Program-made: the position numbers and the translations under genes
The notes under the pieces: model-generated
The model's database searches: none
Seen by the model: only the letters and a program-made list of their open reading frames with translations
What the model was told of the DNA's origin: nothing
Shown: in pieces, positions 30,301 to 36,300 of the stretch
Layout of the letters: every line of letters begins with the position of its first letter
Numbering within the stretch: the stretch's first letter is position 1
From: Lytechinus variegatus
Taxonomy: Eukaryota > Echinodermata > Echinoidea > Temnopleuroida > Toxopneustidae
Assembly (NCBI RefSeq): GCF_018143015.1
Contig: NC_054752.1
Coordinates: 4,637,216-4,701,215 of the forward strand
Reading direction: 5' to 3'
DNA length: 64,000 bases

Positions 30301-33300
30301 ATATTATGTATCATTATAGAATGGATTATAGAAAAGAGTGGATCATGCAGAAGTAATTACCGACGCAAAGCCAGCCATGCAAGCGGTAAATTTGCCATGC
30401 GTCCAGTAATTACTAGTGCATGGCAAATTTACCAGATGCCATGCGTCCAGTAATTACTAGTGCATGGCATATTTACCAGATGCATCGCTAGCCATGTGTC
30501 GGTAATTACTTATGCATGGTTGTTAAAAACAAAATATTTTTCACCAAAAAATTCCACAATGCTATAAAACAAATCATACACAGATTTGTTTGTGCATAGG
30601 TACATGTAGGACTAGTAAGCATGCGGTAAATATGGAAACTATTCTCAACCCACACAGCTGCTCCTGACTGGTTTAAAAGTTCCATAATCACCTTATGCTC
30701 ACAAACTCTACCGATGAACTCACTACTGTGCATCATTTGTAATACTATTCTCAAAGAATACTTCATTGAAACCTGAAGCATTGAGAGCATGGGAGTGTTT
30801 CACAAAAGATTGCGATTGATGTCATCCAGACTATGACACTTTATTCATGCCACTGTTTACCACAATACCCAGAAATCCTTGGGTGTAATGGAACCAGCGG
30901 AGGAAGTACAGAAGTATAGGGAGGCGGACGATTTCGCCCTCATGACTGCGCACATCGCCCCTAAAATGACCCCACAATGCATGCTTTAGGGGTAACCAAT
31001 CTTTCTAGAGTCCCCTCAATATCAATATTCATGATCATTTAGAAAGTCAATATTCTAACTATGGTGGGATGGTGATATTTGCTTTTAATGCATAATAGCT
31101 TGCTCTCTCAAAAAGTAGCTCTAAAATTACAGAAATAGCCCCCATGATAAGATAGCCCCTTAATAATTATATAATATTGACTGGCCTTGAGGGGAACATC
31201 AAATATATTGCCAGCAAATGAATCATATTGGCCCGAGTCTTTAGACGAGGGCAATATGGGTCATTTAAGGGCAATATATTTGATATTTCTTTTAAAAATA
31301 GAGTTCTATTGTGTCATGTTAATATCGGTCTAGGCTCTGCACTTTACCATTATGACGTACTTGCAAGCGCTCGGATTCAGCGTTGTCTTTATTATGACGT
31401 ATATTGTTGGTGGGCGGATCCTTATGAAGCGTATTTCTTTATACGCATCCACAAATTCCCGGATGTGAGACCAGGGAAAATACAAAGGTATATTTTGCTT
31501 CGTCTCTGCATGCAAAGTAAATACGCGCATTGAGACCGAGGAAAATACAAACAATATACCTACCCTTCCCGATATTTATGAAAATGTAGGGCAATACGGT
31601 TTTGTAAATGACCAGCTCAGATGTCTGATACAGGTGATAATAAACAATATTTCCTATCCTGAATGGAACACATGTAGGGCAAGCCTACAACACTAGTGTT
31701 AATTTTCACCATCAATGTATTGAGTAATGTAAAAATAAGCATGCAAACAACTTTTTTCAGGCCAAATGCTGACCAAGAGGAGTGCTCTGCAGATCATTTC
31801 TCAACTCACCGTTCTCTGTTCATCATTCTCCCTCACTTTGAAGTTATGTTCAAGAATGGAGTACAAGATACGCCCCACTCCAAAGGATGGTTCAATGACG
31901 CTGGGGGTAAATTCCTCCACTGGCAAAATAAAATATGATAGATGTGTTTGAGGAAATCTGATCATTCATTGGATTTTTCATAGATTCAAGTTACCATTAA
32001 ATTCATTGCTAGCATACATCTGGGTTGTTCCTTACAAAGAGTTGTGATTGATCGGTTAAATTTAACTATTTGGAAATCCATCACTCAAATAATTTTCTAC
32101 AGGAAATTTGCATGATGCCCTTCAGTAAAAGAGGAGCACACTGATTTGCCAACAATTGTAATGCTCACAATAATCACTTCAACATGTATATTTTCAAACA
32201 TTTTCAACTCATTCAGCTTGGTCAAACCTTCTTACATCACTGGAAGGTGCATTTCAAGATCCTTGCAGTGAGAGCCAAATATTATAAAGCACACAAAAGG
32301 AAGATGCAAACTCAAGATTCATCGTCTTTCAAAGATTTCAAGGTACATGTAGCATCAGCTCTTCAATACATGGTTCAACACTAAAAGCCCAGGGATCATA
32401 TCAACAAAGCATCAAAATAGCAAGAGCTACCACGAATCACATTATACTTCTATGGCTAAAACAATATAGGTCCCAGTGCCTTGCCTTAGTGGACACCAGG
32501 TTACAGCAGTGTGATTCAATGCAATTAGAACAGCGTGCAGCTAATTCAAGCTGTTCCTTACCATGAACTGTCTTCTGATATCTTTTGACTGCAATCATAT
32601 CGGGAGTTAGTTTGAAGCTCTTTCCATTCACCTCCACAGTTGTTTCACTGAAACCAGAAGAAGATGACAGAATGAAAATTCTCAAAAATTGGAGAAAAAA
32701 AATCACTTCAACATAATTAGCTCACAAATTATGCTTGCTAAACTTATCAAATTTACAAGGTAATTAGACGATACATGATTAACACATTTGGAATGTCATC
32801 TTACTTATGCCGGTCTAATCACATAAGTGAATTTTCAGGCAAAGTTTTTGACTGGCAAAGAACACAATGAAAATCACAGCAAAAAAAACCAACAAAAAAC
32901 AAAGCTGTGATATATGGGGGGGGGGTTACAAAAACTTAAATTAAGCTAATTATAATTAACAAATTTGGATTGCCATCTTACTTTTGTAGTTCTAATCATC
33001 CTTTCTTGTAAATCTTTACAATCCAAAGTTAGGCAATTACTCAATGTGCACTTATTCAATGAATAGCTTACCCGTTTTCAGTAAGAGCTTTCTCTAAACC
33101 TGTCAGTTGATCAGGCTCTAAACTGGTGAGATGTTCCATTACAACCTTTGCTTCTTTCTTGAATGCTTTTCCCATCACGCTCTTCACAGGGGCAGCTTCG
33201 GTCACATCAATGGTCTTGTGAGCATCGGTGGTTAAGGATGACATTCTCTCACTTCAGAGTGTCTTTGAAAATCTTATAGGAATCGGCTAAACATGGCCCA

Positions 33301-36300
33301 GACATATGCTCGCATAAATACCTAATTATTTTTTTCATTTCTGTACATTCTGTATATTATATTTTGTGTTTTGCCTTACATTGTAACTTTTGTTGAATTT
33401 TGGAATGAAAAAGAATAAATGCAATCAATCAATCAATTAACTAACAAGAAGTCAAGGTATTATAGGCCATTTTAAACATTTCAAACCAGCCCCAAAATTG
33501 ACTCCCATATAAAATTGTGAAGGCATCATTTCAGTTCTCGATACTACTGTACATTTACCCAACAATAAGCAGTTTCTAAAGAAAGTTGATTTGTTATTGT
33601 CATTGCGTGTCTTTCAATTATCATTCCGTCGCTTTCCTGCACAAAGGCCGTTAACGCGGACTGAGTGTTGCCTTCCTGCACAAAGGCCGTTAACGTCCCT
33701 TCCAGGGGAAGGCGGCATGCAGTGCGCGATTACAGCCTTTGTGCAGGAAGGCGACAAGCAGCGCACGCTAACGGCCTTTATGCGGGAAGGCAACGATTCC
33801 GCTATAAATATTTTTTCAAAGGATATTGGTTCAGCTAGTCTCTTCTCAGCTACCATAGGGACCTTGCTGTGCTTGGCGTGGCATGTGAGATCAAAGCAAG
33901 ATCTATCAGCATTGCCAACACACTCCACCCAACCCTGGTAAAAGAGAGTTAGATGGAAACAAAGTTAGAAACTATGGCCCGTATTCTGAACTCGGGTTTA
34001 AATTAAACCCTGGTTTAAAGACGTGGTTTAACTACATGTACATGTATGGAGAGCCAATCCCCAACAGCACACATTCAATTTATTAACTCATATGGCACCC
34101 AAATTGTTTATAATTGTCTGGGAATGATAACTAAAGTAGTTTTCTTCCTTACGAAAGCAAAAGGAAGCAAAATAGCAAACATAAGAAACAAAAACATATA
34201 AATTTTGAACTTTTGGCTCCCCATATTTTAGCACAGAGTTAGACCTGACCTCAGAATACAGGCCAGAGAGACAGATAATATATCAAGGAATAATAACGGT
34301 ATAATACACATTTAAAAAAGAAATATCGACAGAAAATGGATCAAAATAAATTGCTGGCATTAACATATGAAAAATAATTCAAGCAATTCTACAGCAACTA
34401 ATATGATTAACACTTAACCATGATCATTCACAAACAGTTCCATAAAATTTCACCAATGAAGTTGAACCAAATATAAAGTTAAATCCTCAAATGTTTCTTC
34501 AGTTTATGTGAGACAAGATATTTTAATGTATACACGAAGCTCTGTGACCTTTGACCTTACTCCAAAACATTTGAAATCATTGTTACTCCATTATGTTAAT
34601 TTGAACCAAGTTTAAAGTAATCCATAAAACAGTTCTTGAAGGAAAAGTCCACTTTGACAAAAAAATTGATTTTAATAAAAAGAGAAATATCTAATAAGCA
34701 TAACACTGGGAATTTCATCAAAATTGGATGTAAAATAAGAAAGTTATGATATTTTGAATTTTCATGTAATTTCACAAAACAGTGATAGGCACATCCTGGT
34801 TGGAATGCAAAAGAGAAGACTGATGACGTCATCTAATCACTATTTCTTTTGTATTTAATTAAATGAAATATTCTAATATTCTCCTCATTGTCAAGCAAAA
34901 CAACGATTAATTCCTCCCTGAACATGGGGAATAAGCATTGTTTAATACTATATGGTTCGGTCAAGCGTGGTCCTTATTGTCAAATCTGTAAAAAAATTGT
35001 ATATTTCAAACAATGAAAAACAAAACAAATAGTGAGTGATGAACATCGTCAACTGACTCATTTGCATGTCACTGAGTTGTGCATATCACTGTTTTGTGAA
35101 AAATAAGTGAATCTTTAAAATGTCATAACTTTCTTGTTTTACATCAGATTTTGATGAAATTGTCAGCATTGCATTAGCTTGATTTTTTTTCTCTATTCAA
35201 ATCAACATTTTTCTGGGATGGACTTGACCTTTAACTTGTGAGACATTGATGCTTCCAGCAAACAACAAGGGCGAGTGGAGGCATAACAAATAGCCTACAT
35301 GTACTTACATACGATGTTTTGGTCTCAGCATCCCAACAATCGCATGCATAATGAGCCATCTCGTTGAACATGTGCTGACGGAATCTGAGTTTCTTAGGAT
35401 CTATGCCAACCTTTGTCATGAAGAGGAAGGTCCTACCCAAGAAGTAGCCCAAGACACGGCTTTTGATCATACCCTGCAAGGAAGGAGACATTAATTAATA
35501 TACAGGTACATAGTTTTCCTAAAGCCGAGATTAAGTCCTTTTCATCCATAAATTTGCTATAATTTTTATTTTCTCTTCAAGTTTGTACGTTTCGGAAAAC
35601 CAGCAAATCAAATACACTAATTTTATTCCGAAGGGGCTACTACAGGCAGAGCTAATTCTTACACAATATCACAGCTGCTGTCAGGTTTGCCTGCGGGGAT
35701 GAAAAGGTAGAGAAGAGGCCATGTAGGTTTGATAGTGGTTGGAAATGAAATATCATGGATCCTCTAATGAGGTATTTTCGAAACAGGTAAAGTACCGCAG
35801 TTCCAAAATCTGAGAAACGGTTGCCTTCCAAAGAAAGGTTTGACGTTATGCAAGGGAAGTTGATACGATGCTTTGCAGATGTTACAGGGGCCAAATATTC
35901 CACATTATATCCTACATAAATTAAATCATGTATGCTGATTGGATTGAAGAGCATCATGTGATCAACCATACTCACACTATTTTGCGACGATGATGAAAAT
36001 GAACTTCCACTGATGAAAAATTACTTTTCTGTGACGTCAATCATGGAATAGTGCACTATTCTATCATTGATGTCACATATCATTGACACAGATTGCGCAA
36101 TCTCTCCGGCACAGGCACAAATGCGCTTTCCGCTGAGTGTGTCGCTTCAGAAAAAGTAGGTCAGTCAGTGCAGCGCATTATCTATATTTTTGGTTCAGTT
36201 AAAAAAGACGAGCAACGTGTACAAGATTTAGATTATCAAAATCTGTTGTTCTCACTTAAATATACCAGGCTTTATTTCGAAAGTATAGAGGGAATTATTC

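Follow-up and report, generated by a model that had tools for sequence, protein, structure and literature searches.

The five U12-intron genes chosen for embryonic stem cells in PMC3695530 include Gars, which was picked from U12DB; in patients with RNPC3 variants, the U12 introns of HARS and GARS (GARS1) are reported to be processed abnormally (PMC7612377); and prohibitin-2 (PHB2) is tabled with an AT-AC U12 intron in both fly and human (PMC2831892). In the stretch of the sea urchin Lytechinus variegatus genome analysed here (64,000 nucleotides, hereafter the window, whose positions are used throughout unless a contig is named), the minus strand carries a gene for glycyl-tRNA synthetase (GARS), and the 609 nt at 33218..33826 within it are, almost certainly to judge from their sequence, a phase-0 U12-type (minor-spliceosome) AT-AC intron.

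The upstream GARS exon (33827..33934, minus strand, 108 nt) follows the acceptor TACCAG and ends in GCTGAACCA, read as AEP, with its final CCA at 33827, while the downstream exon (33072..33217, minus strand, 146 nt) resumes at 33217 with AAG ACC, read as KT, and is closed by the donor GTAAGC; both were aligned to GARS. The intron between them starts with ATATCCTTTG and ends with TCCTTAACCACCGATGCTCAC, and the initial annotation, which placed an AT-AC intron with CCA and AAG ACC borders here on the minus strand, was thus correct in sequence and coordinates. The consensus of the U12-type 5′ splice site is (A/G)TATCCTTT, and the U12-type branch motif, TCCTTAAC, lies approximately 10–20 nt from the 3′ end of the intron. 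The 5′ splice site ATATCCTTT (33818..33826, minus strand) agrees with this pattern at 9 of 9 bases, and TCCTTAAC is present in full at 33231..33238 (minus strand), in keeping with the earlier statement that both sites match the consensus. The A at 33232 is the most likely branch point and stands 14 nt before the final intron base, so that the branch-to-end distance is typical, as had been proposed, though the bases between TCCTTAAC and the terminal AC number 11 (CACCGATGCTC) and not 12. The 3′ splice site AC (33218..33219, minus strand), read in the sequence and recovered in a scan of possible joins, forms a tandem CAC/AAG with the first codon of the next exon, and the AG of this tandem ends at 33215, 17 nt from the branch A. 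Position +5 of the intron is C, not G. The intron further contains an inverted-repeat element (33627..33795, no strand assigned), whose arms, 33627–33695 and 33727–33795, are 80% complementary, and a dispersed repeat (33348..33440, no strand assigned, query positions approximately 387–479), which was found at at least 41 places in the genome, 39 of the 41 being elsewhere and two being the GARS intron itself (40 of 434 candidates scored). Despite these two elements, the U12 signals are intact at both ends of the intron.

The joined exons read EPKT, and in the protein comparison they matched solved GARS chains, which we take to be human, without a gap across the junction (E 1.6e-24), aligning ungapped to residues 400–482 of PDB chain 2pmf_A and its like; among the matches listed for this query, eight of eight are named glycyl-tRNA synthetase or glycine--tRNA ligase. 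A partial concatenate of the gene gave its best match to chain 4kr3_A (E 1.3e-207, 14 sequences listed), the match running along the catalytic and anticodon-binding parts as in a member of the GARS family, and an HGTP_anticodon domain was detected in the window (E 8.3e-17). The model TIGR00389 matched ten stretches of the window in the correct order, with E values from 4.8e-22 to 0.54, the weakest (E 0.54) being the exon just after the AT-AC intron. No single TIGR00389 match exceeded the curated cut-off, as expected because the gene is split into exons. Three weak matches to the same model (E 2.5e-5, 0.003 and 1.06) were observed on contig C10 at 30871135-30885811, and our guess is that they possibly belong to a POLG2-like or other class-II synthetase-like gene. 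When the genome of 869,567,369 bases was searched with the 84-amino-acid join at E values up to 1 for a second GARS copy or a retrocopy with joined exons, only its own two exons were matched. The nine further GARS donors are all GT and the eight further acceptors all AG, as read by eye at places refound in the join scan, in a count that leaves out the 5′ exons and the acceptor of the exon near 39400, which was not located, and in which the acceptor near 29494 is the least sure; the AT-AC intron therefore sits among ordinary introns. A tRNA-Val (CAC) gene at 37757-37829 (plus strand, opposite to GARS) is separated by approximately 70 bases from the GARS exon that ends at 37684 and lies, apparently, within a GARS intron. 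Elsewhere in the window, a second tRNA match at 52734-52806 (plus strand) scored 33.7 bits with Rfam (cut-off 29) and was not called by ARAGORN, and two adjoining open frames at 19439-21450 (plus strand), with matches to PF13456, a reverse-transcriptase-like RNase H domain (E 8.2e-5), and to PF00589, a tyrosine recombinase (E 7e-15), probably represent a DIRS/Ngaro-like retrotransposon.

The motifs alone prove little; the main evidence is that they lie where joining the exons restores the protein. The donor ATATCCTTT occurs three times in the window, compared with 1.36 expected, and the branch motif TCCTTAAC three times, compared with 2.34 expected. Among 500 Markov-simulated 64-kb sequences, 44 contained at least one combination of donor, branch motif and AC within 10 kb, and because such pairs can turn up by chance, it is the homology-fixed junction that carries the case. 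In the real window, the GARS donor was the one donor that the same scan returned, and two ACs lay within reach of it, with ends at 33218 and 33213, the latter of which would break the GARS reading frame. At the junction fixed by homology, the chance is approximately 1e-5 for the donor 9-mer and approximately 2e-4 for the branch motif falling on any of 11 places, both by an order-0 estimate.

Genes for the minor-spliceosome snRNAs were found in the genome above the Rfam gathering scores, namely at least five for U12, at least one for U6atac, at least six for U11 and at least three for U4atac. The presence of these four snRNAs, together with the 5′ site, the branch motif at its distance and the lack of G at +5, places the GARS intron in the U12 type. 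GTAAGGA, the complement of TCCTT(A)AC if one A is bulged, stands at position 18 in all five U12 copies, and AAGGG stands at position 4 in all six U11 copies. In the single U6atac copy, AAGGA can pair with donor positions +4 to +8; as the copy reads AAGGAC there, +3 is left unpaired. These pairings between the snRNAs and the intron were read by eye. The U11-48K zinc finger model PF05253 had one match in the genome, to which little weight is given because the model also matches one of 14 prokaryote controls. The roles of the U11, U12 and U6atac pairings in splicing are well established. Considering these results, we propose the following scenario, which builds on direct observations of the splice and branch sites, the reading frame, the match to GARS proteins and the snRNA genes with their complementary stretches, and takes the minor-spliceosome route itself from known biology. 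U11 would pair with the donor, UCCUUU with AAAGGG including one U-G pair, and U12 would bind the branch site by pairing its GUAAGGA to UCCUU-A-AC, leaving one A bulged. U6atac may then replace U11 at the donor, pairing AAGGA with UCCUU, whereupon the bulged A at 33232 would attack the donor and the exons would be joined as CCA/AAG to give EPKT. The ungapped EPKT match, the C at +5 and the minor snRNA genes thus support the minor-spliceosome reading given in the initial annotation.

To weigh other borders, GT and GC donors from 33900 to 33691 and the AT at 33826 were combined with AG acceptors, and with AC too for the AT donor, ending from 33330 to 33150. Removal of an ordinary GT-AG or GC-AG intron by the major spliceosome is formally available, since donors such as GTAGCT at 33853 or GCTGAA at 33835 can be paired in frame with the AG of AAG at 33215. 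However, EPKT appeared in only one of the 115 stop-free in-frame joins scanned, the AT-AC join, and in none of the GT-AG or GC-AG joins, and the earlier claim that no GT-AG alternative restores EPKT therefore stands. The join from GT 33853 to AG 33215 would lose ten residues in a stretch that GARS chains retain as VAEKPLKEPK, that from GC 33835 to AG 33215 would lose four, AEPK, within the same retained stretch, and both donors match U1 poorly at +3 to +6. Furthermore, the use of such an intron would leave a full set of U12 sites at the exact homology junction unexplained, and we consider it very improbable. The tandem CAC/AAG offers a closer competitor, an AT-AG minor intron running from the AT at 33826 to the AG at 33215, used alone or as an alternative to AC and yielding EPT instead of EPKT; this join stays in frame and places the AG 17 nt beyond the branch A. 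This join drops the lysine that GARS chains retain, and the AC, at 14 nt from the branch A, is nearer to the usual spacing than the AG, so that AT-AG splicing appears unlikely. The related notion that the minor spliceosome picks either AC or AG, three bases apart, and thereby produces GARS in two forms that differ by one lysine, is similarly doubtful.

The U12-type AT-AC reading also has to be set against removal of the same AT-AC intron by the major spliceosome, as occurs for a few sodium-channel introns. AT-AC ends alone do not define the spliceosome class, according to PMC2831892 and PMC6717393, which leaves room for this route. However, PMC2831892 describes the AT-AC introns of the major spliceosome as having G at +5, whereas in the GARS intron +5 is C and the U12 branch motif is complete, and major-spliceosome removal is accordingly hardly credible. 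Retention of the 609 nt as coding sequence was also considered and rejected: the frame enters repeat-derived sequence and meets a stop at 33616.

The PHB2 gene was used as a control for the occurrence of such introns in this genome. With a human PHB2 sequence as the query, PHB2 exons were located on contig C14, at 73–74% identity in the three best, and weaker PHB2-like exons found on C1 in the same search probably belong to a paralog. On C14, the PHB2 exon ends in GCTGCTAAGATG (AAGATG) and is followed at 29206669 by an intron starting with ATATCCTTTT; the branch motif is TTCCTTGAC, the intron tail is TTCCTTGACTATTTCCTTGTGCTGTAC, with TGTAC at its end, and the next exon starts with TTGGGAGAGGC (TTGGGAGAG). 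This AT-AC intron, in which donor, branch motif and AC were all read in the sequence, extends over C14:29206669-29207836 (1168 nt). The genome therefore has at least one more AT-AC intron of U12 type, in a gene where it is expected. The PHB2 and GARS introns share the donor core ATATCCTTT, the AC end and the genome; however, they belong to different genes, and the branch motif of the former is TTCCTTGAC, whose A is 19 nt away from the final intron base, compared with 14 in GARS. A repeat near PHB2 also contains four copies of the donor-like ATATCCTT, none of them at an exon end, and a short stretch resembling the inverted-repeat element of the GARS intron was seen by eye just 3′ of a PHB2 exon.

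This particular GARS intron was not found in print in the open-licence literature, in which database entries would not show. In the search for the intron position in mammals, GARS was not named in the main text of PMC6558932, PMC2846911, PMC6717393, PMC2831892 or PMC10639083, and the sought terms occurred in PMC7261760 only in the reference list. For annotation, gene finders limited to GT-AG and GC-AG introns would lose these two exons of an essential enzyme or join them wrongly. As GARS is already in print as a U12-intron gene, the urchin AT-AC intron is confirmed as an expected and ordinary case within a known class. It was probably inherited from an early animal, since the human GARS gene has a U12 intron too. 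The urchin intron has the gene and the intron class in common with the mammalian GARS U12 intron, a likeness stated at the level of the gene and not of intron position, and it differs in carrying two repeat elements of its own.
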